Part shown: piece after piece, positions 1 through 21,130 of the stretch
How positions within the stretch are numbered: the stretch's first letter is position 1
Layout: every line of letters starts with the position of its first letter
Source of the DNA: a virus
IMG/VR virus record: IMGVR_UViG_3300025282_000311
Coordinates: 1 to 21,130 of that record
Length of the DNA: 21,130 nt
Strand: one strand, 5' to 3'
The notes under the pieces: generated by a model
What the model saw: the letters and a program-made list of their open reading frames with translations, nothing else
Database searches by the model: none
Told to the model about the DNA's origin: nothing
Made by a program: the position numbers and the translations under genes

Positions 1-82
1 CTCTGAAAATTTTTTAGAAAAAAAGTTTACATACTGCACAACTGTATCTCTTGTGCGATTTCTACTTAGGTATGTTTGCATC

Positions 83-508
83 ATGCAAAGAGACTACTCA
101 CACCAGGAATGGCCGGAAGATCGCTGGCCGAATTTCTCGTTTGACGAGATGAAATGTTCGGCAACGGGTATGTGCCGGGTGGATGAGGATCTGATGGATA
201 AGTTGCAGCGATTGCGAGAAGCAGTGGGTAAGCCCTTGACAATTACGTCGGGGTATCGATCACCCGATCATCCGATTGAGGCGGCTAAGTTGGCAGACGG
301 CAAGCCAACCGGTTCGCATACCTCCGGCAAAGCGGTGGATGTGGCATGTGAAAGGGTGTTTGCGTATCAGGTGCTTTTTGCAGCGGTGAAGTTAGGGTTT
401 ACGGGTATCGGGGTGCAGCAGTCCGGAGCAAGAAGGTTTTTGCATCTGGACACTATCGGTTCGGGTGACGGGTTTCATGTTCCGCGTCCGGCATTGTGGA
501 GTTACTGA
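83..508 (+). CDS. M15-family peptidase, probable endolysin
   Basis: This is a predicted zinc peptidase of the M15 (D-Ala-D-Ala carboxypeptidase-like) family, expected to cut peptide cross-links of the cell wall at lysis. Counting from the ATG at 83 the protein has 141 aa, the usual length of a single-domain phage enzyme. Family marks seen are FSFDEMKC near residues 18-25, SGYRS at 56-60, SHTSGKAVD at 78-86 (H79 and D86 are probable zinc ligands) and HLD at 121-123 (H121 third ligand). No signal peptide or membrane helix is visible, so release would need a holin. An in-frame GTG lies at 53 and the frame is open back to position 2, so a longer protein cut by the window edge cannot be excluded. 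The ATG is preferred because the family core starts just after it. The stop overlaps the next ATG (TGATG). Confidence 0.85.
   Translation: MQRDYSHQEWPEDRWPNFSFDEMKCSATGMCRVDEDLMDKLQRLREAVGKPLTITSGYRSPDHPIEAAKLADGKPTGSHTSGKAVDVACERVFAYQVLFAAVKLGFTGIGVQQSGARRFLHLDTIGSGDGFHVPRPALWSY
498..501 (+). promoter_or_regulatory. Ribosome binding site deciding the start of the small terminase gene
   Basis: GGAG ends six bases before the ATG at 508. This favours that ATG over the in-frame GTG at 496, which has no comparable motif upstream. Confidence 0.55.
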
Positions 509-1307: not shown

Positions 1308-1465
1308 TGATACTTGAAGAGCAGACCTATCGGCCAAAAATCTATCCAACCGATAGTCGTGCGCCCAAGATTGTGGACGATTGGGGCGGTCTGCACCGTG
1401 AAAACAAAGATTGGCGTAGTGTTCCGGTTGAAAAGCCGAAAAAAGTCAAGGTCAAGGCAAAATGA
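1307..1465 (+). CDS. Small hypothetical protein (52 aa) before the large terminase
   Basis: A short reading frame of 52 codons starts at an ATG that overlaps the previous stop (TGATG) and ends in a TGA that overlaps the TerL start (ATGA). The product starts MILEEQTYRPKIYPTDSRAP and has a central WGGLHRENKDWRSVP stretch. The C-terminus is strongly basic (EKPKKVKVKAK). The exact double overlap, with no unexplained gap between 1307 and 1465, is the main evidence that it is real. I see no known family. The basic tail might bind DNA or the acidic face of a packaging protein, but that is inference. Confidence 0.7.
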   Translation: MILEEQTYRPKIYPTDSRAPKIVDDWGGLHRENKDWRSVPVEKPKKVKVKAK

Positions 1466-2841
1466 ACTGGCAACCGCAGGTCGGCCCCCAAGAAAAGGCG
1501 ATACGTGCCAATTTTGTAGATGAAATATTCTACGGAGGCGGTCGAGGTGGCGGTAAGTCGTGGACATTGTGCTACATGTTCCTGATGGGTGTCCAAAAAT
1601 ACGGTGAACACTGGAAAGGTGTGTTGTTTCGGCGAACCTACCCGGAGTTGGACGAGATTATAGACCAGACGCGCAAAATGTATCGTGATTTTTATCCGGA
1701 TGCAGAATACAAGGTCGGAACGCACACATGGCAGTTTCCAAACGGGGCTACACTCAAGCTCAGACACATAGAAAACGAGGCCGATGCAGACCATTATCAG
1801 GGTATGGCTTTTACGTTTGTTGCTTTTGATGAGTTAGGTAGCTGGAGTGACTTAAAAGCCTATCACAAGATTAAAGCGTGTTTGCGTTCTGGTAGTGCCG
1901 ATGTTCCGGACAAGAAAATTGTCAGTTCCGGTAACCCTGGTGGGCCAAATCACCAAAATATCAAAAAATACTTTATTGACCCTGCACCCGAAGGAACAGT
2001 GATTTCGGGCGAAGACGGCATGAGCCGTATGTATATCCGCAGTCTGGTTACGGACAACAAGATTTTGTTAGACCGCGATCCGCACTACATCAACCGTTTG
2101 AAAAGCGTGGGCGACGAGCATTTGGTAAAGGCATGGCTGGAAGGCGATTGGGATGCGTTCGTCGGCCAATATTTTACGAACTGGAACGAAAAGAAGATCA
2201 CGGTTAACAGTTACGAAATACCCGAACACTGGCCGTTGTTTGGCGCTATGGATTACGGTGAAGCTGCACCCACTTCTTTTGGCCTATACACGGTAGACTA
2301 CGATGGCAACGTCTACCGCATTGCAGAATACTACCAGGACAACGCAAGTGCATCGCAACATGCAGACAATATCACAAAGATGATTGAGAGTTGTCCGTTT
2401 ACGGATGGACGCTACCCACAAACGATCTATTGCGATCCGTCAATGTTTACCAAACGCAGGTTGTCGGCTGCTATTTCTCATTCACCGGCAGATGTGTTTG
2501 CAGAGCATGGGTTGTTTTTAACCAGAGCATCCAACGACCGCATCACCGGATGGCGCGTGATTAACGACGCGCTGATTAAAGAACGCTTTTTCTGCTTTAA
2601 CGGCTGGAACGATGCACTGATGCGAACTATGCCGGCGTTGCCGAGAAGCAACAAGAATCCGGAGGATCTGGACACTCACGCAGAAGACCACGCAGCGGAT
2701 GAATTACGCTATGCAATGATGCACGTATATCGACCGCACAAGCCGGAAGATGAACAACCGTATGAAGGCACCGGACAAGAAGTTATTGACATGATGGAAC
2801 AAGGCTGGGGCGTACGCAAAGGGCGTTACGCACTGGCATAA
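1462..2841 (+). CDS. terL: Terminase large subunit (ATPase and nuclease)
   Basis: This is the packaging motor: it hydrolyses ATP to drive DNA into the prohead through the portal and cuts the concatemer. All hallmark motifs are readable in its 459 aa. The Walker A-type loop is YGGGRGGGKS at residues 24-33 with K32. Walker B is FTFVAFDELG at 117-126 with D123 and catalytic E124. The coupling motif is SSGNPGG at 155-161. The C-terminal RNase H-like nuclease shows acidic residues in GAMDYG (D264), YCDPS (D325) and HAEDHAADELRY (D409 and D413). Length is normal and no frame break is seen. It overlaps the 52-aa gene upstream (ATGA). The motor mechanism, headful or site-specific, cannot be decided from sequence alone. 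Confidence 0.95.
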   Translation: MNWQPQVGPQEKAIRANFVDEIFYGGGRGGGKSWTLCYMFLMGVQKYGEHWKGVLFRRTYPELDEIIDQTRKMYRDFYPDAEYKVGTHTWQFPNGATLKLRHIENEADADHYQGMAFTFVAFDELGSWSDLKAYHKIKACLRSGSADVPDKKIVSSGNPGGPNHQNIKKYFIDPAPEGTVISGEDGMSRMYIRSLVTDNKILLDRDPHYINRLKSVGDEHLVKAWLEGDWDAFVGQYFTNWNEKKITVNSYEIPEHWPLFGAMDYGEAAPTSFGLYTVDYDGNVYRIAEYYQDNASASQHADNITKMIESCPFTDGRYPQTIYCDPSMFTKRRLSAAISHSPADVFAEHGLFLTRASNDRITGWRVINDALIKERFFCFNGWNDALMRTMPALPRSNKNPEDLDTHAEDHAADELRYAMMHVYRPHKPEDEQPYEGTGQEVIDMMEQGWGVRKGRYALA

Positions 2842-2976: not shown

Positions 2977-5004
2977 TTGAAGCAGAAACAAATTGAATAC
3001 TGGCGTGGAGCCATAGAGGACGGTCGTAAGTATATGAAGACGCGCCACAAAACGTGGCGTAGACTTTTAAAGACTTACGAGTTGGACTTTGATGTGCCTG
3101 GTCTGGACGAGGATAAGATTGTCAAGATTAGTCGCATGTATCCATTGGCACGTCAGATCATAGCCAGTGTTTCTTTTAACTATCCGCATGTATTCTTCAA
3201 GGTTGAGGAACCGGGTAGAGAGTTTGCTGCGGAGATACTGGAGCGTGTAGCCAATGCTGCGTTAGAGCAGATGGATGCAAAACGCGAAGTGCAACAGGTC
3301 ATCTTTGATGCGCTGTTTTGTAGTGTGGGTTGGTTGAAGTTTGGCTATAACCCACCGGGTGATGATGACATCGTTGCACCATACACGATTAACGATGCTC
3401 AGGAAAACGACTTTCCGTATGTGCATCGGGTGTCGCCGTTTAACGTCTACGTCGATCCGTTATGTCCTCCGCACAAATTGTCAGGCGCACGGTATATCAT
3501 CGAAAAGATGATGGTGCCTTTAGAGTTTGTGAAAGAGGATGACCGTTTTGTAAACCGTAGGCAGATAGAGGCGATGTCCGATGACGATCAGGCCGACGCT
3601 TTTATTTATGACATGCAAGATGCAGAACATTCTGACGAGTATGACGCGGTGCAGCATTCCAAGCAGGGTCAGATGGTTTGCCTGTATGAAATCCATGACC
3701 GCTTGCACAAAAAGCGCATCACATTTGCCGAAGGGGTCACCGATCCGATTGAAGAAGTCGATCATCCGTTTCTTGCAATGAACCCTATTACAGAAACCGA
3801 TCCGTTCACCGGCGAAGAACGTATGACGGGTGAGTTTGAACCGGCTGGTGGCTATCTGATGGACGGTGGCTTTCCATACCACGCACTGCGGTTTGACCAG
3901 ACCGAACGCTCGTTTTACGGCGAACCGCCAATGGCGTATGTCGAGGACACGCAGTCACTCATTGTCGAATCCGTATCACGCAGAGCCGATTTGTTAAAAA
4001 GATTCCAGCGCGTGGTCTTAGCCTCGCGCCGTGAACGCGAAGCCAACCAGGACATTGGTGATACGTTAGAAGGCGGTCGTGACGGTGAGATCATCTGGGT
4101 GGAAGATCCAAGCACTTCGATGCGCGAAATGAACTTTGGCAACCCTCCACCGGATCAGTTGGGTCTGGAGTCGGATGCACAAAGCTACGAGGAACAAAGT
4201 TTAAACGTATCGCAGATGGCGATGGGCGGTGGGCCGAAAGTCACAGCCACGCAAGCCTCTTTGTCTGCAAGTTTTGCTCAGGTCAACCGCGAATGGATGC
4301 AGTTGCGCGTAGCCGATTGCTACCGTGCTGTTGTTCGCAACTCGTTACGTATGATGGCCGATGAAAGATATTTACCCGATGACTTCTTAGTCAACGTAGC
4401 AAGAGATACCGAAGATCCGGTATACGAGGCGGTGACCGCTGACATTTTACGGATACGTTACAAGATTGACATCGAAGCCGGTAGTATGCAGCCGTTGACG
4501 GAACAACTTGAACGTCAGGACGCTCTACAGCTTTTCAACATGACAATTAACTTGCCAGAAATAAACCGCATCGAAGCAATCAAGTCATTGTTGGCATCGT
4601 TTCGTGTTCAAGATCCTGATAAATATTTAGGTGATGCAGAAGACGGTGACACGTTGAAAGCGGCACAACTGGAAAACGTAGCCTACCTGATTAACGGTGG
4701 CGATCCGGGTGTCACGCCAAACGAGAATCACCAGATGCACATACAAATCCACCAACAGATACAGCAACTTCCACAGTTCCAGCAACTACTGCCACAACAA
4801 CAGCAACAGGTTATGGGCGTGGTGCAAAACCACATACAGCAACATCAACAAATGCTAAACCAGATGGCGCAAGGTCAAGCACCGCAAGCAGCCGGTGGAG
4901 GTGGCAGTAACGCCGGCGTAGCAGAAGGAAACATTTTATCACTCGTACGCAGTCAGGCACAAGAAGTTAGTCAGGCCGTACAGAACGCACCGGGTCAAGG
5001 ATAA
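2977..5004 (+). CDS. Portal protein
   Basis: Predicted portal, the dodecameric ring at one capsid vertex through which DNA enters and leaves and to which the adaptor binds. The 675 aa are within the range of portals of short-tailed phages. Readable family-like features are the N-terminal helical part (residues 1-60), FNYPHVFFKVEE at 67-78, a GWLKFGY segment at 118-124 and VSPFNVYVDP at 152-161. The C-terminus (about 585-640) is extremely glutamine-rich, probably a helical barrel or tail reaching into the capsid, and is followed by a glycine-rich linker. Position directly after TerL and before scaffold and capsid genes fits. Initiation is at TTG. The stop overlaps the next ATG (TAATG). No catalytic motif is expected. 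Confidence 0.88.
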   Translation: MKQKQIEYWRGAIEDGRKYMKTRHKTWRRLLKTYELDFDVPGLDEDKIVKISRMYPLARQIIASVSFNYPHVFFKVEEPGREFAAEILERVANAALEQMDAKREVQQVIFDALFCSVGWLKFGYNPPGDDDIVAPYTINDAQENDFPYVHRVSPFNVYVDPLCPPHKLSGARYIIEKMMVPLEFVKEDDRFVNRRQIEAMSDDDQADAFIYDMQDAEHSDEYDAVQHSKQGQMVCLYEIHDRLHKKRITFAEGVTDPIEEVDHPFLAMNPITETDPFTGEERMTGEFEPAGGYLMDGGFPYHALRFDQTERSFYGEPPMAYVEDTQSLIVESVSRRADLLKRFQRVVLASRREREANQDIGDTLEGGRDGEIIWVEDPSTSMREMNFGNPPPDQLGLESDAQSYEEQSLNVSQMAMGGGPKVTATQASLSASFAQVNREWMQLRVADCYRAVVRNSLRMMADERYLPDDFLVNVARDTEDPVYEAVTADILRIRYKIDIEAGSMQPLTEQLERQDALQLFNMTINLPEINRIEAIKSLLASFRVQDPDKYLGDAEDGDTLKAAQLENVAYLINGGDPGVTPNENHQMHIQIHQQIQQLPQFQQLLPQQQQQVMGVVQNHIQQHQQMLNQMAQGQAPQAAGGGGSNAGVAEGNILSLVRSQAQEVSQAVQNAPGQG

Positions 5005-5405
5005 TGCTGGTATTTCACGATTACGAATGCGAAGACGGGCATCGTCAGATTGACGTAGCCAACGACTCAAGCAAAGTCAGGCGCACGATTAAATGCGACC
5101 AGTGCGACAAACGTGCAGCCATGTTGTTTATCAAGAGCAACTTCATACATAACTCACACAGCAATATGTATGGCAAGTTTCACGCTGGCTTTGGTGAAGT
5201 GGTAGAGAGCTACAGCCATAAACAGGAATTGTTAAAAAAATACAACGTGACAGAGAGTGCCGATGCAGTTGGTGGTTCTCGATGTCATATAAACTCCAAT
5301 GTAACAGACTCAACTCCAACAGATACCCCAACGCCTTCTTTTGGTAACACACCCGAAGAAGCAGTGGCTCTGGCAGAGAAGAGATTTAACGAAGGAGCAG
5401 ATTAG
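5004..5405 (+). CDS. Zinc-ribbon protein of FmdB-like type
   Basis: The N-terminal 40 residues form a small zinc-ribbon-like module: YECEDGH (C9 and H13), then KCDQCDK (C32 and C35). This is the arrangement of the FmdB regulatory-protein family, in which a CxxGH-like knuckle is followed by CxxC. The remaining part has an FIHNSHSNMYGKFHAGFGEVV stretch and a low-complexity T/P/S-rich tail before a final helix (TPEEAVALAEKRF). The ORF is 133 aa. It lies between the portal (TAATG overlap) and the scaffold-like gene, so a role in head assembly or DNA contact is possible. No function is established from the sequence. AAGGA just before the ATG is close but usable. Confidence 0.7.
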   Translation: MLVFHDYECEDGHRQIDVANDSSKVRRTIKCDQCDKRAAMLFIKSNFIHNSHSNMYGKFHAGFGEVVESYSHKQELLKKYNVTESADAVGGSRCHINSNVTDSTPTDTPTPSFGNTPEEAVALAEKRFNEGAD

Positions 5406-6275
5406 ATGTCCGAATCAGCACTCGCTTTGGACTCCGGTGCGGAAGACACGTCACCTTCAGAGGGTTCATCCAGTGAAGAGTCAACTGAATCATCACTTGA
5501 TTTTTTCACAGATGACACACCCAATGAAGCACCGTCGGAAACATCTGGACACTCTGATGCACAGTCAGATTTTGACCCGGAACGGCACGATTGGTTACGC
5601 GGTAACGCAGACAATGTGCCGGAGCAGTATCAGCCGTTAGTTCCGCTCGCAAAAAACATGCAAGCGCAATTCACGCGTACGCAACAGGACTTAGCAGAGC
5701 AGCGCCGACAGATCGAAGCACAACAGGGCGAATGGGCCAACAGGGTGCAAACCCTCGTTACACCCCAACAGCAGCAGCAAGATCCGGTTGATGCAATGAG
5801 AGCCAACCTTTCTGAAGATGAAGCTCGCGGTGTAGATGCCGTAGAGCAGATCATTAAACATAGGGTAGGCAATGCAGTAAACGATCTGAACAGTCAGGTG
5901 CAGCAGTTACAGCAACAGTTGGCTACGGCCAACAATTACGTGCAGGGTCAGCAGACCGCGCATATTGCCACGCAGGTGGGTGATGCGCGACAGGCGTATG
6001 GCAATGATTTAGATGCGTATACCGATCAAATTGTTGCTACGACCAAGATCGCTAACCCGACGACGGGTAACCCGTATACGGTGAAAGAGGCGTATGAGCT
6101 ACACGCAGGTATCACTGCTCAAAAGGCAGCCGATTTGCGTAACAGCGATACGTCAGCACGTAAGTCCTCAAAACGTGCAGTGCGTGGAACGCAAGGTGTT
6201 GATGCAACGGAAAGTGACGGCCCATTAACAGATTCTGATGTTTTATCAGGGTTATCCAAATTGGGTTTTGAATAA
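5406..6275 (+). CDS. Putative capsid scaffolding protein
   Basis: Probably the scaffold that guides coat assembly and is later lost from the head. The 289 aa show the typical architecture without strong sequence similarity that I can claim. Residues 1-58 are acidic and serine-rich. Residues 80-185 are glutamine-rich and likely to form helical coiled coil (RTQQDLAEQRRQIEAQQ and QVQQLQQQLATANNY). A basic patch, ARKSSKRAVRG at 251-261, lies near the C-terminus, where scaffolds commonly bind coat protein. The position immediately before the major capsid gene supports the call. AAGGAG (5392-5397) is eight bases from the ATG. A minor head protein is the alternative. Confidence 0.75.
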   Translation: MSESALALDSGAEDTSPSEGSSSEESTESSLDFFTDDTPNEAPSETSGHSDAQSDFDPERHDWLRGNADNVPEQYQPLVPLAKNMQAQFTRTQQDLAEQRRQIEAQQGEWANRVQTLVTPQQQQQDPVDAMRANLSEDEARGVDAVEQIIKHRVGNAVNDLNSQVQQLQQQLATANNYVQGQQTAHIATQVGDARQAYGNDLDAYTDQIVATTKIANPTTGNPYTVKEAYELHAGITAQKAADLRNSDTSARKSSKRAVRGTQGVDATESDGPLTDSDVLSGLSKLGFE

Positions 6276-6288
6276 GGAAAAATAGATT

Positions 6289-7275
6289 ATGGCAGCAACA
6301 TCACGTACTTCAGTTTTCGATGCCGCGTGGACTTTAACTATGCGGGCCAAGCGCAAAGAGTTGACCGATAACTTCTTTGACGCATACCCAACTTTAGACA
6401 TGTTTCGTAAAGGTGGAGCATTAGTTACAGACAACGGTGGCAAAGAGATACAGGCAGACATTTTGTATGCCGGTAACTCAGCGCAATATTTCTCAGGCTA
6501 TGACGTACTTAACACAGATGCGGTCGATGGAATCACAGCCGCGTTCTATCCGTTCCGGTACGCCGCAGTGCCTATTACGATCAACTTTACCGAAGAACAA
6601 GAGAACCGTAAACGCGAAGCTGTTATGTCGCTTTTGGAAGCAAAGACTCGTCAGTCCATGCTTACGTTGCGCGATCAGATTAATGCCTCGTTGTATTCTG
6701 CTCAGACCGGTAAGGCTCCGTTAGGATTCCAAGACATTATTGCTGATGCACCGGGAACGACTCCAACTACGTTGGGCGGTATCACGGTGTCCGGTAATTC
6801 ATGGTGGAAAAACAAAACGGAAGATGCGTCTGGTGATACATCGTTTAGAACGATTACCGGAACAAACTTTTACGAAGGTATGTTGCGGATGGCAAGTCTT
6901 TGGAATGCAACATCCGAAGGCAATGAACAGCCAACCAATATCTTCACGACAAATTCTATTTACGCACAGTTTGAAGAGATATTTGAAGGCACGGGTTATC
7001 AGCGTCTTTCGGGTAACGATTCGCCGGGTGTAGATGGCCGTTTGCCGTCGTTTCGTGGTATTCCGGTGCAGTATGACCGTGACTGCGGATCGGGTCGTAT
7101 GTATTTCTTCAATACCAATTACTTGAAGATGCACATGCAGTCAGGTATGAATTTTAGCAAGACTCCATTCCGCGAAAATGCAAATCAAATGGCGAAGGTC
7201 GCCTTTATCACTGTGGGTTTAAACCTAGTTACCTCGAATCGTCGTCGTCAGGGTGTAATTACAGGTATCAGTTAA
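6289..7275 (+). CDS. Major capsid protein
   Basis: Predicted coat protein forming the icosahedral shell, 328 aa. It follows the scaffold gene and precedes a terminator-like hairpin and a probable decoration gene, the standard position. The sequence has the look of HK97-fold coats of environmental phages. It has an N-terminal helical arm (MAATSRTSVFDAAWTLTMRA), a long helix with RDQINASLYSAQ in the middle, a glycine- and threonine-rich loop near residues 145-185, and a C-terminal strand-rich part ending in TSNRRRQGVITGIS. No protease or delta domain is fused, so maturation cleavage is not evident. An AAGGA motif lies about ten bases before the ATG. Confidence 0.85.
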   Translation: MAATSRTSVFDAAWTLTMRAKRKELTDNFFDAYPTLDMFRKGGALVTDNGGKEIQADILYAGNSAQYFSGYDVLNTDAVDGITAAFYPFRYAAVPITINFTEEQENRKREAVMSLLEAKTRQSMLTLRDQINASLYSAQTGKAPLGFQDIIADAPGTTPTTLGGITVSGNSWWKNKTEDASGDTSFRTITGTNFYEGMLRMASLWNATSEGNEQPTNIFTTNSIYAQFEEIFEGTGYQRLSGNDSPGVDGRLPSFRGIPVQYDRDCGSGRMYFFNTNYLKMHMQSGMNFSKTPFRENANQMAKVAFITVGLNLVTSNRRRQGVITGIS

Positions 7276-8874: not shown

Positions 8875-9573
8875 ATGACAAATTTGCAGATCATTCAGAT
8901 TGCCCTTAGAAGGGTTGGTCTGAATACAGGTAGTTCGACATTTAAAGACGGGGCGCGTGACTATTTAAATCTGGTCACTCAGGATATAGCTTCGCGTGAA
9001 AAATGGAACTGGCTGTTCAAAGGTTCAACTTTTAATACAGTAAACGGCACTCGTACGTATTCGCTGGCCAGTGACGTAGTGGCTCCGTTGTCGTTTCGCA
9101 ACACTACCGAAGATCACGTCATTCTTATCATGTCTACGCAAGACATTGATGCGGCTGATCCGGATGCCAGTATAAATGGCGATCCGCGATGGGTTGCTAT
9201 TGATGGCGTAGACTCTAGCGGTAACATTGAAGTCACGTTGTATCCGGAGCCGGACGGCGTAGACACGATTGCGTATCGCTACTACTCGTCCATACCCACG
9301 TTTACAGAATCTGAAGATAGCGACTCCATAAATCCGTATGTAGCACCTGTATGTCAGCCGGCACTTATACACGGCATCTCTGCATTATATAAGCAAGAGA
9401 AAGGTGACGATCAGGGCGCAATGTCGGACAAACAGGAGATGGAGCGCGTAATTGCTATTGCAGGTCGGCAAAACATGAACGTGCAGGGTAACCGTTCATA
9501 CCGTATGCGTAGAGCAGATGAGAGCTACAGCAACAAGTTTTCTTTTACGCCTACTGAAGGATCGTTAAGCTGA
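8875..9573 (+). CDS. Head-tail adaptor (SU10-type or T7 gp11-type)
   Basis: Probable adaptor ring that joins the portal to the tail nozzle. The 232 aa resemble the adaptor family typified by phage SU10 and T7 gp11: an N-terminal helical bundle (LQIIQIALRRVGL, then KDGARDYLNLVTQDIASREKW) followed by a beta domain with the 'RTYSLASDVVAP' strand, the P-D-rich insertion and LYPEPDG near residue 120. A C-terminal helix and tail follow (SYRMRRADESY). The gene lies directly before the nozzle gene, and its stop overlaps that ATG (TGATG). Length and order fit a short-tailed phage. Confidence 0.78.
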   Translation: MTNLQIIQIALRRVGLNTGSSTFKDGARDYLNLVTQDIASREKWNWLFKGSTFNTVNGTRTYSLASDVVAPLSFRNTTEDHVILIMSTQDIDAADPDASINGDPRWVAIDGVDSSGNIEVTLYPEPDGVDTIAYRYYSSIPTFTESEDSDSINPYVAPVCQPALIHGISALYKQEKGDDQGAMSDKQEMERVIAIAGRQNMNVQGNRSYRMRRADESYSNKFSFTPTEGSLS

Positions 9574-11072
9574 TGCCGATAACCGCTGAATCGTTACGTC
9601 TTGGCCCCTGGAGAAGTGGGGTAAACTACAGCTTACCGGCTGAAGACATGCCACCGGACGGTCTGTTTGAAATGGAAAACTGCACGGTTGGGTTGGCCGG
9701 TGAGGTAGCCAAGCGGAACGGGTTTGCAAAGTATAATGCAAGTGCAATGAACAGCGGTGCTACGGTAACTGCATGTGGTCAGGTTGTATTAGCCGGAACA
9801 GAAAAGGTTTTCGCTTTTTGCGGTGATAAGTTTTTTGATGTTACAGGTGGAACGGCAACAGATCGAACAGGTAGCGTGACCATAACTGCCGGCAATGACT
9901 ATACGTGGGATTGGGTATTGGCCGGTAGCACATTGATTGCGGTAAACGGTCAGGACACAGACGGTATCAAGTGGGCAGGTGGAACGAGCAACGCAGCAAC
10001 ACTCGACGATAGCTCTCGATTCACCAAACCTAAATGGGTAACCTTTTGGGAAAATCGTGCATGGGTTGGCAACATAAACGGAGCCGCAGATCGTTTATGG
10101 CGAAGCGATGCCGGTGACATCGAAACGTGGGGTTCACTCAGTTTTAACAGCGTAGGTTTTGACATTACCGGGTTACGCCCATTCCAAAACTATTTATCTA
10201 TCCACACAGAGCAGGGCATTCATACACTTACGCCTACGGGTAACGCAACGATACCTTTTCAGCAACAACAGCGAACGCAACGCGGAACCGTAGCCGGCAA
10301 AAGTATTGTTACGGTTCCTGGTGAGCGTCAGTTGTTTGTGCGTAACGATGGCATCTACCAATGGTCAGGCGGTGCAAGTGTTGAGAAGATTTCTTTGGCA
10401 CTGGATGACAGATATTGGAGCGAACTAAATGTAGCTCGTTTGCCGTATTCGTTTGCTATGTATTACCCTGCACAGGAACAAGTCTGGTTTTTCTTACCGT
10501 ATGGTGCATCGCAAACGACAATGAACAGTGTGGTGATTTACTCTGCACGACTTAATGCGTGGTTTGGCCCGTATAATAATTTTACCCGTGACAGTGCAGC
10601 GCTTATCGACGACTTGCCACATGCCGGTGACTTTGCCGGGCGCATCAATAAACACGATAGCGGAACGAACGACGATGGAAGTGCTATCAAGGCTTATTTT
10701 GAAACGGCCTCAATAGCTCCACGCGGTGATGCAGTATCATGTCGCTGGCTGTATAACCGGACGCTGTTTGATAATACTGGAGCGTTTGATCTCAGTATAT
10801 CGCAGATTGCTGCCGGTATTGTTTCCAACACAGAAACTATCACAATGGGTAACGTAGGTAGTCTGCTGGACAGTTCGTTTGTTTTGGACTCGTCATTATT
10901 AGAGTCGGACGTATCTGCACTAACTCAGGATTCGGATTTATTTGGTTACGATCCACGAACTATGCTGCGCTTTTCCAACTTCAACTTAGATGAACCATTT
11001 ACTGTTCGACGTGCAAACCTCCAATACAAGCCTATTGGAAATACACGCGAACGCAACACGGGTATAGAATAA
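9573..11072 (+). CDS. Tail nozzle / stabilisation protein (P22 gp10- or T7 gp12-like role)
   Basis: Predicted tail hub protein below the adaptor. The 499 aa are close to the P22 stabilisation protein and clearly shorter than T7 gp12. The protein is rich in beta strands with repeated W and G positions (WDWVLAGSTLIAVNG, WVTFWENRAWVGNING, LSIHTEQGIHTLTPTG, RQLFVRNDGIYQWSGG), which suggests a propeller of several blades. Upstream residues ('GPWRSGVNYSLPAEDMPPDG') are typical of the N-terminus of this group in environmental phages. It shares a TGATG overlap with the adaptor and a TAATG overlap with the next gene. A role in DNA retention and docking of fibres is inferred from family position. Confidence 0.75.
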   Translation: MPITAESLRLGPWRSGVNYSLPAEDMPPDGLFEMENCTVGLAGEVAKRNGFAKYNASAMNSGATVTACGQVVLAGTEKVFAFCGDKFFDVTGGTATDRTGSVTITAGNDYTWDWVLAGSTLIAVNGQDTDGIKWAGGTSNAATLDDSSRFTKPKWVTFWENRAWVGNINGAADRLWRSDAGDIETWGSLSFNSVGFDITGLRPFQNYLSIHTEQGIHTLTPTGNATIPFQQQQRTQRGTVAGKSIVTVPGERQLFVRNDGIYQWSGGASVEKISLALDDRYWSELNVARLPYSFAMYYPAQEQVWFFLPYGASQTTMNSVVIYSARLNAWFGPYNNFTRDSAALIDDLPHAGDFAGRINKHDSGTNDDGSAIKAYFETASIAPRGDAVSCRWLYNRTLFDNTGAFDLSISQIAAGIVSNTETITMGNVGSLLDSSFVLDSSLLESDVSALTQDSDLFGYDPRTMLRFSNFNLDEPFTVRRANLQYKPIGNTRERNTGIE

Positions 11073-13486
11073 TGGCGGTAAGCTATAACGAGATGATGAC
11101 AGGCGGTAGCCAGAAGAAGAAAAAGAAACAGCCTACAATGGCACAAGCTCAAGGTGCTGGTGTTCAACAACCGCAGACATATGGTCAGCCGTCAATGGCT
11201 CAAGCACAAGGTCAAGATCCGTTGGTGAGTGCAATAGCTGCCGGTAGTCAGGCTCAAAATCAACAGCCGTCAATGGCGCAAGCTCAAGGTGGAATGCAAC
11301 CTCAACAGCAACAGCCAACGATGCAACAGGCGCAAGGTGGAGCCACATTACCACCACCTCCACCGCCTCCACCTCCGGCTCCGTCTATGGCTCAAGCGCA
11401 AGCACCATCTGCACCGCAACCTACAATGGCGCAACAACAACAGCCAGTGGCGCAACCAGCTACAATGACAAACCCGACGAGCGACCCTAATTTCGGTCAG
11501 CCACCAGCTACTACAGTAAACCCAACAAGTGATCCGAATTTTGGACAAGCACCAGCGACAACGGTCAACCCGACAAGCGATCCAAACTTTAGTCAACCGC
11601 CAGCTACAACTGTAAACCCTACGAGCGATCCGAACTTTGGAAGGCCACCAGCAACAACGGTGAATCCAACGAGCAATCCAAATTTTGGTAGAGCGCCGGC
11701 TACAACGGTTAACCCGACAAGCGATCCAAACTTTGGCAAAGCTCCAGCAACTACGGTAAATCCAATTAGCGATCCTGGCTTTGTATCTGACTTAGCTACT
11801 GGTCAGCCGGTTACAGAGAATCCATTAAGTGATCCGTTGGCTGTTAGAGCAATGGAAGAAGAACGCATGAGCCAACCGGTTACAGAAAATCCTTTAAGTG
11901 ACCCATCGTTTGTTCAAGGCTTGGCCGCCGATGCAACTACGCCTACGGTGAATCCGATAAGCGATCCATCGTTTGTTCAAGGTTTAGCTGCTGATGCAAC
12001 TACGCCTACTGACGCATTAGGTGCTGGTGCAGATATGGCTGCTGCTCAGAATGTGGTAACGCCCGAAGCTGCACCAATGGCTGATACGTTAGAAGATGCA
12101 CTACGTCAGCAATACATGAATAGAGTGGGTGGAACAGACGATCCGATTATGGCCTCACAATTAGCCGATCAGCAGTTCAGACAGAACGAAGCGCGTAAGG
12201 CTTTGGTCGAGCAGTTGGGTCGATATGGTGTGTTGCGAGGTGGAGGCGATACAGCGGCCGCTTTAGCGAGAATGGGTGAAGGCGATGAGCGTAACCGATT
12301 AGCACTTGAAGCTCAAGCTGCACAACGCAGACAACAAGATTTACGTGATGCTCAAGGGTTTGATTTAGGCCAGCGAGGTATGGGTCTACAAGAAGATCGA
12401 ACGCAACAAGATATTTTAACGCAAGCGTTAAATCGTGACATTGCCAGAGCCGGTCAAACTGGAATATTTGAACGCGATGAAACAATGGCTGCAAAAAGAC
12501 AGAGAGCAGAACTTGATGCGTTAAGTAGAGGCCAACAACGTGCAGACGCTGCCTTAACTGGTGAGTTTGGCGAAGACGGTCAGCAGACCTTACAAGCACA
12601 ACGCCAACAGGCAGAATTGTTTGGAGAGTTAGACGATCAGAAAACATTGGCTGGTCAACAGTTAGAATCGCAGTTGTTTGGTGAGGTCGATGACCGTCAG
12701 ACGCTAACGGGTGAAACCACACAAAGCGGATTAGACACGCAAGACTTACAACGCAGAATAGCTGAAGCCGGTCAGACCGGACTGTTTGATACAGGTGCAG
12801 CGAACATGGCTCCAGTACAGACTCAGCAAGCCAGAGCATTGGAGAGTGAACTGGATACGGCTGCATTAAGACGTGATGCCACACGCGCCGGTTTGACGGG
12901 TGAGTTTGAAGACGATCAAACATTGGAAGCTGAACTACGTAGAGCCGGCTTGACCGGAATGTTAGGCGATGATCCAACATTGGCTGGAAGACAAGCTGAT
13001 ATGGACTTGATTGGCAGTATTTTAGCAGCAAGAGAAGTAGATGATATGGCTGGAACAGAAGACTTAGTAAGTGGTTTAGCACAAAACTTACAGAGTTTCA
13101 CGCCGGAATCTATTGAACAGATTCGTAGAGGTGCAGCCGCGCAAACGGACACCGCACGGGTTGAAACTGGAACTTCAGTGCCAACGTCAACCCCTGATGG
13201 TATCACCGTACCTTCAACAGGCAATGAAACAATAGATGCGGCAATGGATTCATTTATAAACAGAGAAGATTTCGATTATGACCCTGCAACAGCAAGGGGT
13301 TTTAGAACAGCGCGAGACAGTAAAGGAGACCTTATTGCAGAATGGGTTGTAGGATCTGGGCCAAGTGCAAAGTCCTTTAGAGGTAAGTTTGACAAAAAAT
13401 CACAAAAGTTTGTAAAAATAGGTGGTTCGTATGGTGGAAGTAAAGATAGAACAGGGCCACGAATTGACGAAGTAGATCCGCAATAA
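11072..13486 (+). CDS. Large repetitive virion protein, candidate internal (ejection) protein
   Basis: I do not recognise a family for this 804-aa protein. It is built from four parts. Residues 1-130 contain six loose copies of P(S/T)MAQAQG in a Q-rich stretch, interrupted by nine prolines in a row (94-102). Residues 134-314 are ten tandem units starting NP(T/I/L)SDP; the first six are exactly 16 residues. Residues 315-455 are helical and charged. Residues 459-647 carry about seven units of a second repeat with a TGEFxxDxTL core. The C-terminal 120 residues are non-repetitive (INREDFDYDPATARGF, FRGKFDKKSQKFVKIGG) and probably the folded part. Its position after the nozzle gene and before other large low-similarity proteins suggests an internal virion protein delivered with the DNA; a flexible appendage protein is the alternative. 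Confidence 0.65.
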   Translation: MAVSYNEMMTGGSQKKKKKQPTMAQAQGAGVQQPQTYGQPSMAQAQGQDPLVSAIAAGSQAQNQQPSMAQAQGGMQPQQQQPTMQQAQGGATLPPPPPPPPPAPSMAQAQAPSAPQPTMAQQQQPVAQPATMTNPTSDPNFGQPPATTVNPTSDPNFGQAPATTVNPTSDPNFSQPPATTVNPTSDPNFGRPPATTVNPTSNPNFGRAPATTVNPTSDPNFGKAPATTVNPISDPGFVSDLATGQPVTENPLSDPLAVRAMEEERMSQPVTENPLSDPSFVQGLAADATTPTVNPISDPSFVQGLAADATTPTDALGAGADMAAAQNVVTPEAAPMADTLEDALRQQYMNRVGGTDDPIMASQLADQQFRQNEARKALVEQLGRYGVLRGGGDTAAALARMGEGDERNRLALEAQAAQRRQQDLRDAQGFDLGQRGMGLQEDRTQQDILTQALNRDIARAGQTGIFERDETMAAKRQRAELDALSRGQQRADAALTGEFGEDGQQTLQAQRQQAELFGELDDQKTLAGQQLESQLFGEVDDRQTLTGETTQSGLDTQDLQRRIAEAGQTGLFDTGAANMAPVQTQQARALESELDTAALRRDATRAGLTGEFEDDQTLEAELRRAGLTGMLGDDPTLAGRQADMDLIGSILAAREVDDMAGTEDLVSGLAQNLQSFTPESIEQIRRGAAAQTDTARVETGTSVPTSTPDGITVPSTGNETIDAAMDSFINREDFDYDPATARGFRTARDSKGDLIAEWVVGSGPSAKSFRGKFDKKSQKFVKIGGSYGGSKDRTGPRIDEVDPQ
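11132..11446 (+). repeat. Six degenerate P(S/T)MAQAQG units
   Basis: The motif PTMAQAQG or PSMAQAQG recurs about six times with irregular Q/G/P-rich spacers; the last copies are PTMQQAQG, PSMAQAQA and PTMAQQQQ. Codons vary between copies. Confidence 0.75.
11471..12013 (+). repeat. Ten tandem NPTSDP repeat units (six of exactly 48 bp)
   Basis: Six consecutive 48-bp units (11471-11758) each encode NPTSDPNFGQPPATTV with at most three changes. They are followed by units of 60, 69, 63 and 63 bp that keep the NP(I/L)SDP core; the last two share SFVQGLAADATTPT. Third-position changes are common between units although the peptide is nearly constant. Confidence 0.9.
12447..13011 (+). repeat. About seven units with TGEFxxDxTL core
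   Basis: Units of 19 to 25 residues follow the pattern AG(L/Q)TGEFxDDQTLxAxxxxAxL. Clear copies read ALTGEFGEDGQQTL, FGELDDQKTLAGQQ, FGEVDDRQTLTGE, AGLTGEFEDDQTLEAE and TGMLGDDPTLAGRQ. Two others (AGQTGIFERDETM, AGQTGLFDTGAAN) are more degenerate. The spacing suggests a helical, heptad-like rod with a turn at each G. Confidence 0.75.
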
Positions 13487-15324: not shown

Positions 15325-17369
15325 TGGCATATAATGAAAAACAACGTCGGCGCATGGCGCTGTTGTTAGGCGACAGTCAGCCAGAGGAACAAGAGCAGCA
15401 AGTTCCGCTTGCAGAAGACCGCGTCGAGTCACAACAGTTTTCAGATGCAGAATTGGCGAGGATGGAAAAGCTGTTAGGGGGCAAAGATCAAAGTTTCTTA
15501 GCTCGCTTGGGTCGAACGGCTCAAAAAATACCTGGTGATATTATGGAAACAGCCGGCGAAGAGTTTAGTGCGCTTGGTGAAGTGATAAGTGATCCGGGTC
15601 AGGCTATTTCCGGCATAGGAATGGCGCTGGAAGGAACTGCTGATATAGCCGGAGAGAAAGTGCTTGGTTCGCTGTATGAACCGCGTGATCCGCGTCGTGC
15701 TGAAATGGTGCGCCAAATGGCCGGTCAGTTTGGTGAGGAAATAAAAAACGTAGAAGAGCGTCCAGTTCGATCTTTAGTCAACCTTGCATCATTGGCAACA
15801 TTGCCGCTTACAGGCGGTGGTGCAGCGTTAGCAAGAACTGCTCCAAGAGCATCTAAATTGTTATCGACGCTTGGTAAGGCAGCCGACGTTATTGATCCGG
15901 TAACGGCTGCGGCAAAAGGAACAGGCGCATTATACAGAGGCGTAAGGGGTAAGGTTTCTAAAGCCGGTGAGAAGGTAGCGTCAATGGCCGAAGATACCGG
16001 TGCAGCGACTAAAACTAAACCGCGTCTAAGAGATGCGTTTGGGCAAGTTTTTGATAGTGTTCTTGGGTTTACTACCGGCACAAGTCAGACTGCTTTAGAA
16101 AGATTGCGACGCTATGTAGGCGAAGGTAAAGGCAACGTAATACGTGACTTTAGAAAAGACAAGACAACGGGTCGATTGCGTGTTGTAGATAAATACATAA
16201 AAGATCATAAGAAGATAAGAGAACAGGCAAATAAAGATTACGAGGCTGCTCAACAGATGATGAAGGATAATGGCCTATACGATCAACCTCTTGGAAAAAA
16301 CAATGAAGTAATACTAACAGACTTACGGAACATTGTTACCAGAGCGTTAGACGGGTCAGGTGCAACAGTAAATGTTGGTGCAGTAGATGATCTTGGGGTA
16401 AGTAAAGCAACCATAGATTTTCCATACGGTAAAACTAAAATAGCAGAAGAAACACAAAAGAAGATTGATGGAATTTTAAATAAAATAATAAATCTTGAAG
16501 GCGAAAAATATATTGACAAAATAGTTGAATCAGAAGAACTGGTATATAAAGCACCTGCACAGTTTGTTCCTAAAATGGTTAAAGAAGTAAAGGTTATGGA
16601 TGTGCAGTATTTAGACGCACTGAAGAAGCAGTTAAAAGATGAAATAAATAACATTGCCTACGACGATAAGGCGCGTAGTGCGAAGCGCTATCTGACAAGG
16701 GTTCACGACCAAATTGCTGAAAAATTAAACCAAGCCACAGAGGGCGCACACGGCGAGTTGATGCGTAGTTATGCTGACAAAATGAAGGTGTTGGATGCAG
16801 CCGATGAAGTGTTCAGCATTGACCCAAGAAAAGCAGTTGAAGTTGCAGACCTTAAGACCGGAAAAAATGCTTATGGCAGTTTAGCGTCTGCGCTTGCAGA
16901 CAGCCCGGACGAGCTACTTAACCTTGATCAATTTGAGCGTGTTGCCAGAGAGTCCGGTGGAAGCGGAGACTTGATAGCCTCGTTGGTAGGTTCAGCGTTT
17001 AATCCTCTTTTCGGTAGCGGTCTTGTTGTAAAATCTGAAATATCACAAATAGGACGAAACATTGCAGATAATATAACACGTTTCGGAACTGGAATTGCTA
17101 CTACAGTATTTTCAACGCCGGCCATCCTTCTGTTTAGTCCACGCGCTATTGGTGCGATTGTGCCACGCTTAGTTGAAGGTGGCATGAGATTAGAAGATGC
17201 AACTCGTACGGCTCGTAATCTCGTAAAACAAGTACAGGCAATTGGTAAAAAGACGGGTATAAATAAAGTTGCACTTGAAGGGGTAACATTGGGTCAGTTA
17301 ATAGAGCGCCTTAATGAAGATGCAGAGTTGGCACAAATGATCGAAGACTTAGAAAAAGGGCAAAACTAA
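15324..17369 (+). CDS. Putative internal virion / ejection protein (681 aa)
   Basis: Largest of the four candidates between nozzle and fibre. Residues 1-45 are charged; a short repeated-looking segment at about 70-115 (GDIMETAGEEFSALGEVI, then GQAISGIGMALEGTADIAGE) has helix-forming, glycine-spaced hydrophobics. Residues 150-172 (SLVNLASLATLPLTGGGAALART) and 583-620 (with GTGIATTVFSTPAILLFSP) are the most hydrophobic parts and might enter a membrane. The middle is charged and lysine-rich with several coiled-coil-like stretches. No lytic transglycosylase motif is visible, unlike T7 gp16. Function is inferred from place and layout only. It starts at a TGATG overlap and its stop overlaps the fibre gene (TAATG). 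Confidence 0.6.
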   Translation: MAYNEKQRRRMALLLGDSQPEEQEQQVPLAEDRVESQQFSDAELARMEKLLGGKDQSFLARLGRTAQKIPGDIMETAGEEFSALGEVISDPGQAISGIGMALEGTADIAGEKVLGSLYEPRDPRRAEMVRQMAGQFGEEIKNVEERPVRSLVNLASLATLPLTGGGAALARTAPRASKLLSTLGKAADVIDPVTAAAKGTGALYRGVRGKVSKAGEKVASMAEDTGAATKTKPRLRDAFGQVFDSVLGFTTGTSQTALERLRRYVGEGKGNVIRDFRKDKTTGRLRVVDKYIKDHKKIREQANKDYEAAQQMMKDNGLYDQPLGKNNEVILTDLRNIVTRALDGSGATVNVGAVDDLGVSKATIDFPYGKTKIAEETQKKIDGILNKIINLEGEKYIDKIVESEELVYKAPAQFVPKMVKEVKVMDVQYLDALKKQLKDEINNIAYDDKARSAKRYLTRVHDQIAEKLNQATEGAHGELMRSYADKMKVLDAADEVFSIDPRKAVEVADLKTGKNAYGSLASALADSPDELLNLDQFERVARESGGSGDLIASLVGSAFNPLFGSGLVVKSEISQIGRNIADNITRFGTGIATTVFSTPAILLFSPRAIGAIVPRLVEGGMRLEDATRTARNLVKQVQAIGKKTGINKVALEGVTLGQLIERLNEDAELAQMIEDLEKGQN

Positions 17370-20233
17370 TGGGTACTGTATCAAGGGTACATACATTTTC
17401 ATCAGGCGCGGTTTTAACAGCGGCGCAACTCAATAACGAGTTCGATAACCTTCTGACCAGTAGCGCGGTCAATGGAGGCTTGGATGCGACGAATCTAGGG
17501 GTTACCGCCGGAGTCGTTTCGGCATCAAAAGCACTGGTTGTCGATTCAAGCCGTGACCTCGACGATACGTCTGCATCGAACCAACTGAACAACCTAACCG
17601 TATCAGGGTTGCTTAAAACAGACAATACAACGAATGCTACATCAACAACCGATGGGGCGTTACAAACGGACGGTGGATTATCTGTAGCACTGGACGCGAT
17701 CATCGGTGACGATCTGAAACTGTTAAGCGATTCGGCTGTATTGTCGTTAGGTGCTGGCTCTGATTTTACGATTACACACGATGGAACTACAGGCGCTACG
17801 TTAGCCGGTAACCCTATTGTTATCGACTCAGGAGACGCTCTAACGCTCGATGCACATACTGGCGTGTTCACCTTTAAAGATGCCGGATCTTCTGTTTTAA
17901 GCATCACAGAAGGCAACTCAGGCGATGTCACAATTAAGCTGATAACTAACGGTAAAGATTTAAAGTTTACGGACAACGGCGATGCGGTAGGACTAACCGT
18001 ATTAGATGGAGCCGCTGGTATTACGGTAGCCGGTGAAGGTGACTTTGGCTCATTAGACGTAAACGGCAATGCAGACATATCTGGCGATCTCACGTTGTCG
18101 GCTGGGGCAGATGGAGCATTACGTTTTTCAGCCGCAAGCTCAATTAAAATTCTCGACAACAGTGCAGCCTCACTGGTAGTAGAAGAGGCCGATAATGCCT
18201 ATATGACCTTTGTCACGACCAACAGTTCTGAGGCTGTAAAGTTTGACAAGGCACTCGATATAAACGCTGCTATGGACATAGATGCAGCTATGCAGATAGA
18301 CGGAACGATCACGGTTGGAGTCGATGATACCGGTTACGATGTCAAGTTTTTTGGAGCTACAAGCGGATCAAGTGTGCTGATTGATGAATCTGCCGATGAT
18401 GTAATTTTTACCAATTTCGGATTAGCTGTAGGATCGGACGCTACAGGCGACGTATACTACCGCAACTCAAGTGGATACCTCGCACGTTTAGCGGCTGGGT
18501 CAAACGGCCATGTATTAACGCTAGATTCGGGCATTCCTTCTTGGGCTGCTGCGTCCGGTGGCGACATAACTGGCAGTACTGGAAGCACCGACAATATAAT
18601 AATTACTGCGAACGGAACTGGTGGAAGCACTGTACAGGCTAATAGTGCAGTGGCCGTAGACGACTCCAGTAATGTTACAGGTGTGGGCAACCTGACACTA
18701 TCCGGTGAGGTCGATGCAGCTACGGGTGACTTTTCTGGAGCGGTAGACATAGCAGGTGATCTTACGCTTTCTGCTGGAGCAGATGGAGCGTTGCGTTTTA
18801 GTGCTGCAAGCTCAATTAAGATACTTGATAACAGTGCCACTTCTTTGGTTTTTGAAGAAGCTGACAATGCTTACATGACATTTGTTACCACCAACAGTAG
18901 TGAGGCTATTAAGTTTGATAAGTCGTTAGATATAAACGCCTCCATGGATGTAGATGCAGATGTGGACATATCTGGCGATCTTACGCTATCTGCCGGTGCT
19001 GACGGTGCATTACGATTCTCGGCAGCAAGCTCAATTAAAATCCTGGATAACAGCGCAACGTCATTAGTCGTTGAAGAAGCTGATAATGCCTACATGACAT
19101 TTGTTACGACTAACAGTAGTGAAGCGATCAAGTTTGACGTTGGGCTTGACGTAAATGCTGCTGTTCAGATTGATAGCACGGTGACGGTTGGGGTAGACGA
19201 CACCGGACATGACGTAAAGTTTTTTGGCGCAACATCTGGATCATCGGTGCTTTTTGACGAGTCTGCTGATGACATGATTTTAACTAATTATGGACTTGCA
19301 GTAGGAAGTGATGCCACTGGCGATATTTACTACCGAAACAGTTCTGGATTTTTAGCACGGCTGGGTGCTGGCACAAACGGACATTTCTTGAAACAAGGTT
19401 CGTCTATTCCAGAGTGGTCAGCGGTAAGTGCCACTGCATTAACAGGCTCGACGGCCACAACCATTCCAACCGTGACGGGTGCAAACGCAATAGCCGGCGA
19501 AGCAAACCTTCGATACGATGACAAAATTCTTTCCACCGATGGAGCAGCAGCAAGTTTCGACACGACTTTCACGGGTGTCCAAAGCGAGAAAATGTTTATT
19601 GGTGGCGAAGATGGACATGCTACTAATTCTGAATGGTGGAGCAATGTTTATTACGATTCATCGGCTTATAAGCGCATTGGTACAGGTGAGGCATCACGAT
19701 ATAGACAACAAACTGGCACACACACATGGTATGGTGCAGGGTCAGCATCGGCTGATGCAACTATCACATGGACTACGGCTGCCTATTGGGATTCGGATGG
19801 TAATGCTAACTGGTACGCATCTGGTTCCAGTGCATTTGTTATTGCTACTTCTACACCTAAAAAACCGTCGGGTGGAGATTGGTCAGCTACGTCAGATTCA
19901 CGACTCAAAACAGTAACAGGCGAGTATACGCTTGGCTTAACTGAACTATGCAACTCAAACGTCAGACCGGTCAAATACCAGTATAACGGCAAAGCCGATA
20001 CGACTGCTGATGGTAAGACTTATGTTGGCCTTGTAGCCCAAGAAGTCGAGCAGGTATTTCCTGATACCGTCACACAATACTCAAGAAAAATTAATGACAC
20101 CGATGCAAACGAAACCACTGACCTGAGACAGTTTGACGGTGGCGAAATTAAATGGGCGCTCGTCAATGCGGTAAAAGAGTTAAAGGCAGAACTTGATGCA
20201 GCCAAAGCGCGGATAACAGCACTGGAGGCGTAA
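17369..20233 (+). CDS. Tail fibre or spike with C-terminal S74 self-cleaving chaperone
   Basis: Predicted receptor-binding fibre of 954 aa. The first 80 residues (MGTVSRVHTFSSGAVLTAAQ, then LNNEFDNLL) resemble a virion-attachment end. The bulk (about 90-800) is beta-rich and built from repeated modules: a 66-residue unit with GDLTLSAGADGALRFSAASS appears three times and a 73-residue unit with TVGVDDTG...VKFFGATSG twice. Residues 842-954 are an intramolecular chaperone of the S74 family: SDSRLK carries the Ser (S842) and Lys (K847) pair in the spacing of the known dyad, followed by GLTEL, NVRPVKYQYNG, the YVGLVAQEVEQVFP motif and a final helix (LVNAVKELKAELDAAKARI). The chaperone trimerises the fibre and is then released by cleavage at S842. 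Trimer formation is expected from the family. Confidence 0.88.
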   Translation: MGTVSRVHTFSSGAVLTAAQLNNEFDNLLTSSAVNGGLDATNLGVTAGVVSASKALVVDSSRDLDDTSASNQLNNLTVSGLLKTDNTTNATSTTDGALQTDGGLSVALDAIIGDDLKLLSDSAVLSLGAGSDFTITHDGTTGATLAGNPIVIDSGDALTLDAHTGVFTFKDAGSSVLSITEGNSGDVTIKLITNGKDLKFTDNGDAVGLTVLDGAAGITVAGEGDFGSLDVNGNADISGDLTLSAGADGALRFSAASSIKILDNSAASLVVEEADNAYMTFVTTNSSEAVKFDKALDINAAMDIDAAMQIDGTITVGVDDTGYDVKFFGATSGSSVLIDESADDVIFTNFGLAVGSDATGDVYYRNSSGYLARLAAGSNGHVLTLDSGIPSWAAASGGDITGSTGSTDNIIITANGTGGSTVQANSAVAVDDSSNVTGVGNLTLSGEVDAATGDFSGAVDIAGDLTLSAGADGALRFSAASSIKILDNSATSLVFEEADNAYMTFVTTNSSEAIKFDKSLDINASMDVDADVDISGDLTLSAGADGALRFSAASSIKILDNSATSLVVEEADNAYMTFVTTNSSEAIKFDVGLDVNAAVQIDSTVTVGVDDTGHDVKFFGATSGSSVLFDESADDMILTNYGLAVGSDATGDIYYRNSSGFLARLGAGTNGHFLKQGSSIPEWSAVSATALTGSTATTIPTVTGANAIAGEANLRYDDKILSTDGAAASFDTTFTGVQSEKMFIGGEDGHATNSEWWSNVYYDSSAYKRIGTGEASRYRQQTGTHTWYGAGSASADATITWTTAAYWDSDGNANWYASGSSAFVIATSTPKKPSGGDWSATSDSRLKTVTGEYTLGLTELCNSNVRPVKYQYNGKADTTADGKTYVGLVAQEVEQVFPDTVTQYSRKINDTDANETTDLRQFDGGEIKWALVNAVKELKAELDAAKARITALEA
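18071..18268 (+). repeat. Tail-fibre module A, copy 1 (66 codons)
   Basis: Encodes ADISGDLTLSAGADGALRFS and continues to ALDINA. Copies 2 (18743-18940) and 3 (18962-19159) have exactly the same length of 198 bp. Confidence 0.9.
18293..18511 (+). repeat. Tail-fibre module B, copy 1 (73 codons)
   Basis: Encodes QIDGTITVGVDDTGYDVKFF to the stretch ending AAGSNGH. It matches 19166-19384 without any length change. Confidence 0.9.
18743..18940 (+). repeat. Tail-fibre module A, copy 2
   Basis: Starts VDIAGDLTLSAGADG. It is not followed by module B but by a short linker (SMDVDAD) and then copy 3, so it looks like an extra insertion of module A alone. Confidence 0.9.
18962..19159 (+). repeat. Tail-fibre module A, copy 3
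   Basis: Starts VDISGDLTLSAGADG, differs from copy 2 at only a few residues, yet many codons are different. It is followed by module B copy 2, as copy 1 is followed by module B copy 1. Confidence 0.9.
19166..19384 (+). repeat. Tail-fibre module B, copy 2
   Basis: Encodes QIDSTVTVGVDDTGHDVKFF to the stretch ending GAGTNGH. It is the same length as copy 1 (219 bp) and codon-diverged from it. Confidence 0.9.
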
Positions 20234-20674: not shown

Positions 20675-20806
20675 ATGAACCGCTTTTGGTCGTGGTTGGA
20701 AAAACTGTTGCACCGAAAGCGTCTAAAAGACAAGCGTAGTCCAAGAGCGCGGATGGCAAAAAAAGATGGAAACAGAAGCAGCAGAGGCTCTACAAAAATT
20801 TTCTGA
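20675..20806 (+). CDS. Very basic small reading frame (43 aa)
   Basis: Starts two bases after the previous gene and encodes MNRFWSWLEKLLHRKRLKDK followed by more R, K and S. The N-terminus is amphipathic with two tryptophans; overall the charge is strongly positive. Its last 41 bases overlap, in another frame, the start of the downstream membrane-protein gene. No convincing ribosome site is seen (AAGG lies about 20 bases off). It could be a real lysis-cassette or DNA-binding peptide, or a chance frame; the second cannot be excluded. Confidence 0.4.
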   Translation: MNRFWSWLEKLLHRKRLKDKRSPRARMAKKDGNRSSRGSTKIF

Positions 20807-21130
20807 ACAGTCCGGTATTGGTCTGCTGATAGAGCAGTATAGCTGGCTGTTTGTAGTTGGTTTGTTTTTGCTGTTTTTGCGTAACACGATTGAAAATATA
20901 CTGGCCGGTGCAACGGTCTTTTTTGGATCGAAATACGATGAGAATCAGACCTGTTACATACAGGTAGGTGGAGATCGTAGACCAGCTCGTATCAGCAAAA
21001 CATCGCTGACATCAACCACGTTTTACGTGTATCAGGTTGATGAGAACGGCAATATAAAATCAGGCACTTTACTCAATGTAGCCAACAGCGATTTAGGGTC
21101 GCTCAGAATTGAACGCGAACTGGACTTACT
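20766..21130 (+). CDS. MscS-like membrane protein, cut by the window edge
   Basis: This frame has no stop before the end of the window (121 codons seen). It begins METEAAEALQKFSEQSGIGL, an amphipathic helix, then one membrane segment (about 26-38, SWLFVVGLFLLFL). The part after it matches the layout of the MscS channel beta domain. RNTIENILAGATVFF stands where MscS has the end of its pore helix (N-x-x-AG). A strand pattern follows, with IQVGGDRRPARISKTSLTS in place of the 'V.i.g..G.V..I...sT' core, and then GTLLNVANSDL at the 'vPNs.l' position. It is only one helix plus beta domain; MscS has three helices. If real it would act in the cell membrane, perhaps with the neighbouring holin candidate. 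GGATGG (20751-20756) is a weak ribosome site. The similarity is read by eye. Confidence 0.55.
   Translation, partial: METEAAEALQKFSEQSGIGLLIEQYSWLFVVGLFLLFLRNTIENILAGATVFFGSKYDENQTCYIQVGGDRRPARISKTSLTSTTFYVYQVDENGNIKSGTLLNVANSDLGSLRIERELDL

Follow-up and report, generated by a model that had tools for sequence, protein, structure and literature searches.

A family of uncultured-phage proteins retaining the TM3-like helix and beta domain of MscS

The window analysed here, namely the entire IMG/VR record IMGVR_UViG_3300025282_000311 (a linear fragment of 21,130 bp), ends inside an open frame in which a sequence-only reading had recognised one membrane helix followed by an MscS-type beta domain. 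Two questions are raised by this locus: whether the frame is a real gene of MscS descent, and what a phage might do with such a protein. The combined use of Pfam, PHROGs and reading of the open frames identified a structural gene set of phage type on the window (Table 1). The translation of the tail fibre gene contains long internal repeats, and tandem 48-bp repeats at 11455-11775, lying within a gene for 804 aa (11072-13486), encode PATTVNPTSDPNFGQ-type repeats.

Table 1 Features of the window, with the parts of the MscS-core gene at its end.
Feature	Position	Strand	Remarks
M15 peptidase	53-508		
Large terminase	1462-2841		
Portal, P22-like	2977-5004		
Major head protein	6289-7275		PHROG E 2e-46
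SU10-type adaptor	8875-9573		
Tail fibre gene	17369-20233		S74 chaperone at end
Neighbour gene, 146 aa	20233..20673	+	Has a coiled coil and two hydrophobic segments; its shape makes it a holin candidate
Small basic ORF, 43 aa	20675..20806	+	MNRFWSWLEKLLHRKRLKDKRSP...; between neighbour and MscS-core gene, overlaps start of the latter
MscS-core gene	20766..21130	+	Open up to contig end, 121 codons; stop 7 codons beyond
N-terminal helix, residues 2-15	20769..20810	+	Acidic flank; AF2, low confidence, pLDDT ~59
Long helix, residues 17-54	20814..20927	+	Hydrophobic ~18-42 (TM3a equivalent), then TM3b-like; NTIENILAGATVFFG
NILAG, residues 44-48	20895..20909	+	Aligns with E. coli MscS N117-G121
MscS-type beta domain	20949..21116	+	Predicted strands 62-67, 70-79, 83-91, 97-106, 115-117; pLDDT ~80
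STT, residues 83-85	21012..21020	+	Aligns with E. coli MscS S152-T154
VANSDL, residues 105-110	21078..21095	+	N107 equivalent to E. coli MscS N167

Extension of the gene beyond the contig, which the sequence-only reading had proposed as a check, was provided by an identical copy (L002) and a 99% identical copy (L003); both place the stop seven codons on and give a full-length form of 128 aa. The protein is encoded by 26 IMG/VR contigs at 78-100% identity, and the pairwise dN/dS within the clade (0.04-0.15 for pairs with measurable dS) indicates purifying selection. The frame is therefore not a chance ORF. The membrane segment, NILAG, G-rich strand, STT and VANSDL that had been picked out by eye were all located in it, a QVGG strand is present, and the protein contains a single hydrophobic stretch (around residues 18-42).

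The family extends well beyond this clade. A scan with L043 returned 18 loci, a scan with a nine-member profile returned 163 confirmed viral loci (the best 80 of 163 were retained) and brought the family to about 60 distinct proteins, and a further scan added eight loci of a second type (L212-L219, named b-type). The contigs that carry family members range from a few kb up to 209 kb and include small podovirus-like phages. One contig, L165, carries two adjacent MscS-core genes (5010-5321 and 5685-6011), one of each type. No significant match was obtained when seven family members were compared by tblastn with 50,697 GenBank phage records. The closest predicted structures in BFVD were UniProt A0A1B1IQW5, A0A516MLU7 and A0A516LVN0, the first being 48% identical over 130 columns, and these three are probably members of the phage family. 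A scan of cellular genome contigs gave one match, on a contig of a Pelagibacter MAG, and the family profile found no member in 296 of 297 genomes of that MAG's order. A cellular origin was rejected, as this sole matching contig has the family's usual phage-type neighbours and is thus probably viral. This phage-type contig, L170 (NZIO01000021.1), binned in a Candidatus Pelagibacter MAG, has the same gene order as L101 and L102, and its binning may point to that lineage's host.

An MscS profile match had been anticipated for the gene; it failed for the single protein and held for the family. The window protein alone matched nothing in Pfam or PHROGs. For PF00924 (MS_channel_2nd, the MscS beta domain), the curated Pfam cut-off of 20.2 bits was passed by homologues of about 39% identity (L101, 26.9 bits; L104, 25.4 bits; L102, 23.5 bits), by the paralogue L165:5685-6011 (24.1 bits) and, in a six-frame search of whole records, by G011 (27.8 bits), G012 (26.4 bits) and G008 (26.4 bits). 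Most other tested members matched PF00924 in the same register under the cut-off. The hhalign comparison of 36 family members with 32 MscS cores gave a probability of 92.9, an E-value of 3.7e-7 and a score of 43.1 over 69 columns, against a maximum of 22.4 in 60 column shuffles and 11.5-14.7 for reversed and unrelated alignments (11.5 for a neighbour-gene profile, about 14 for reversed ones). The window clade taken alone was marginal (probability 6.6, score 20.4 versus 18.6 for the best shuffle), so its MscS assignment rests on the wider family. A PDB sequence search with three profiles, including the family profile, recovered no MscS chain; its matches to calcineurin B, an adenosine receptor and maltose O-acetyltransferase were set aside as chance matches. 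Sub-threshold matches to RE_NgoPII, NifZ and Head_fiber_dimeric were scattered and inconsistent, and were discarded.

The predicted structure leads to the same fold. An AF2 monomer prediction from the shallow clade alignment was too weak (pLDDT 61), and the 36-member alignment was used instead, yielding an overall pLDDT of 72.6 with about 80 in the beta domain. Strands were predicted at residues 62-106, within the 45-110 range expected from the sequence-only reading. The top Foldseek match in the PDB was 2vv5, the open MscS structure (E 1.2e-3, probability 1.00), and the 16 best matches, all of probability 1.00, comprise MscS, T. cruzi MscS, YnaI and a YnaI-MscS chimera, together with 3t9n, which the Foldseek table labels 'membrane protein'; the other 15 are named as MscS-type. 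Profile, structure and family evidence all back the reading of a single membrane helix followed by a beta domain of MscS type, and we assign the MscS fold and ancestry to the phage protein with high confidence.

A joint alignment of 42 viral sequences (36 window-type and 6 b-type) and 32 cellular sequences enabled us to compare the protein with E. coli MscS residue by residue. A47-G48 of the window protein corresponds to A120-G121, STT to S152-T153-T154 and VAN to I165-P166-N167. The N167 equivalent (window N107, the asparagine of the MscS 'PN') is invariant in all 74 sequences, and the position of the L109 gate is leucine in 35 of the 36 window-type members; the T153 equivalent is kept in 32 of the 36. 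The positions of N117, G121, D134 and G143 are largely retained. P129 is absent from the window-type members, and the P166 equivalent is kept in 6/6 b-type and 3/36 window-type sequences. The mean Gly/Ala fraction of TM3a is 0.15 in the viral proteins versus 0.39 in MscS; the viral helix does not show Gly/Ala-rich packing. Window-type members contain a beta-hairpin insert, which is lacking in the b-type, where the canonical I/V-P-N is retained; at the level of sequence, the b-type members are a bridge between MscS and the window's type. The TM1-TM2 paddle of the three-TM layout is missing from the viral members, which have a single hydrophobic stretch, and the C-terminal alpha/beta vestibule is missing as well, the tail after the PN asparagine being 21-45 residues in the aligned viral members versus 119 in E. 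coli MscS. The aligned viral proteins measure 101-147 aa, and the cellular open frames 275-1302 aa among the matches listed. Every member examined retains just the TM3-like helix and the beta domain. By membership, the phage protein corresponds to the core of MscS, TM3 and the beta domain, rather than to the whole channel.

The conserved gene, the family-level TM3-beta homology, the single helix, the wide phage spread and the rarity in the cellular genomes that were scanned (almost none carry the family) are supported by observation; the membrane orientation, heptamer, conductance and physiological role are what we infer. Since the family is widespread and combines a pore-type helix with a neck domain, phages probably either produce miniature membrane pores themselves or disturb those of the host. 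The acidic N-flank, together with the analogy to MscS TM3, suggests that the N-terminus lies outside. The one membrane helix would then be the equivalent of the TM3 pore helix and would continue into a beta domain in the host cytoplasm, with neither a tension-sensing TM1-TM2 paddle nor a C-terminal vestibule. During infection, the protein would most likely oligomerise in the inner membrane of the host, probably with seven subunits, to form a small pore or a ring resembling one, and the infected cell would thereby change in turgor or ion leak. We lean slightly towards such an MscS-type, probably heptameric inner-membrane pore altering turgor or ion leak. Two published cases speak for it: microsporidian MscS2, made of TM3 and the beta domain, is still heptameric (PMC11262690), and a two-helix MscS devoid of the vestibule still conducts (PMC12334622). 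Counting against it are the unrecognised window clade, the PDB sequence search that recovered no MscS chain, the reduced Gly/Ala packing of TM3a, the replaced prolines and the lack of a consistent osmotic or lysis context. More tentative is the broader proposal that phages, independently of microsporidia, reduced MscS to TM3 plus the beta domain and that the resulting self-assembling miniature channel may set the turgor of the infected cell.

A lysis role was weighed against this pore on the basis of gene neighbourhoods. As a lysis factor, the protein would be an accessory or pinholin-like pore working together with the adjacent holin candidate where the late operon ends, and the sequence-only reading had likewise proposed a lysis partner beside a holin. 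The neighbour gene is real and has the expected coiled coil and two hydrophobic segments; nothing significant was found for it in PHROGs or Pfam, so its holin label derives from its shape. The pairing is firm within the window clade, where all 32 loci recovered via the neighbour gene carry the MscS-core gene directly downstream, including seven diverged loci at 35-60% identity. At L066:3001-3423, the neighbour is swapped for a 52%-identical version and the adjoining MscS-core gene is still 78% identical. The small basic ORF precedes the MscS-core gene in most examined window-clade copies; its N-terminus is conserved in the clade with two alternative C-terminal ends, it reads through in frame into the next gene in L048, and it is absent from L056 and L063. 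Holin-type genes also occur near the MscS-core gene in L158 (a holin PHROG match two genes downstream, E 2.5e-12) and in L090, where an XhlA/holin-like gene (E ~1e-3) precedes it by about 1 kb. Against a lysis role, no holin-like neighbour is present in L101, L102, L163, L165 and others, and in other lineages the nearest 5 kb often contain no gene for a small membrane protein. In L101/L102 the two flanking genes encode a zeta-toxin-like kinase and a protein whose start resembles a signal peptide; in L139/L111 a lipoprotein-like gene lies on one side and, on the other, a large gene carrying ankyrin-like repeats. The MscS-core gene adjoins a 653-aa ribonucleotide-reductase-like gene in L078 and has sugar-nucleotide and primase-like genes nearby in L083, several of all these names being readings of the sequence only. 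The M15 peptidase is distant, from about 14 kb (G001) to about 22 kb (G002). No consistent osmotic or lysis context was found across the neighbourhoods, and their variety together with the distant peptidase leaves a dedicated lysis role unsupported. The same gene beside the same holin-like gene therefore holds for the window clade and not for other lineages; a lysis-cassette gene as the general reading is rejected, holin-like neighbours occurring in some lineages only, and we consider a lysis factor improbable.

A modifying subunit, which would insert into or cap host MscS heptamers and shift their gating in a dominant-negative manner, so that the host could not vent solutes or would vent early, is unlikely, though it ranks ahead of the lysis factor. 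It would account for the retention of the oligomerising core (TM3 plus beta domain) with the sensor and vestibule gone, and a target would be nearly universal, as cellular MscS was found in 58 of 60 sampled genomes. Over the core, however, the phage proteins are only about 16% identical to cellular MscS, which makes a matching subunit interface unlikely, and the lineage with two tandem copies fits self-assembly better. The least probable alternative is that the protein is not a channel and that the MscS-like beta domain has been repurposed, anchored in the membrane, as a ring or as a platform where other phage or host proteins dock. The low Gly/Ala content of the helix, the loss of its kink prolines and the window-type hairpin insert would suit such a platform, and the authors of the microsporidian study suggest a possible new function following compaction (PMC11262690); the retained L109-gate position, TM3b and PN asparagine argue against it. 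The miniature pore is the reading we slightly favour. Should the broader, more tentative proposal of a turgor-setting channel hold, prokaryotes and the viruses that infect them would have in it their smallest MscS-type channel, and phages a widespread host-control gene that is so far unannotated. An extensive family of genes from uncultured phages, left blank by PHROGs and, for most members, by Pfam, now has a name, and it becomes testable how small a conducting MscS can be and whether phages steer host turgor by a channel of their own.

Among known systems, E. coli MscS (YggB) shares with the phage proteins the TM3a-TM3b-beta order and, largely, the positions N117, G121, D134, G143, T153 and N167, and provides the best Foldseek match, 2vv5. 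The phage proteins differ from it in having no TM1-TM2 and no vestibule, fewer Gly/Ala residues in the helix, a hairpin insert and a P166 that is mostly lost. In the open-access literature, no single-helix MscS family in phages was found described. MscS- or MscL-like genes have been reported in large eukaryotic DNA viruses (PMC6163359), and MscL genes likewise from estuarine viruses (PMC13288924). The 261-aa protein of the Aureococcus anophagefferens virus is a virus-encoded MscS homologue that Foldseek also matched, but it has three predicted TMs and belongs to a eukaryotic virus; the other large eukaryotic DNA viruses carry the MscL type, and the single-helix phage family is absent from that study (PMC6163359). 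T. cruzi MscS (Foldseek matches 9bgu and 9bgq) shares the vestibule-less beta-domain core and conducts, whereas it keeps an N helix and two membrane-embedded helices, TM2 and TM3 (PMC12334622). A parallel by description is MscS2 of the microsporidian Nematocida displodere, which consists of TM3 and the beta domain only, still forms a heptamer, and was called a truncation unique to microsporidia (PMC11262690). It differs in being eukaryotic, in its separate transfer from bacteria and in keeping P129, G143 and P166 (PMC11262690). The phage family described here adds a second group in which MscS is cut down to the pore helix and the beta domain.
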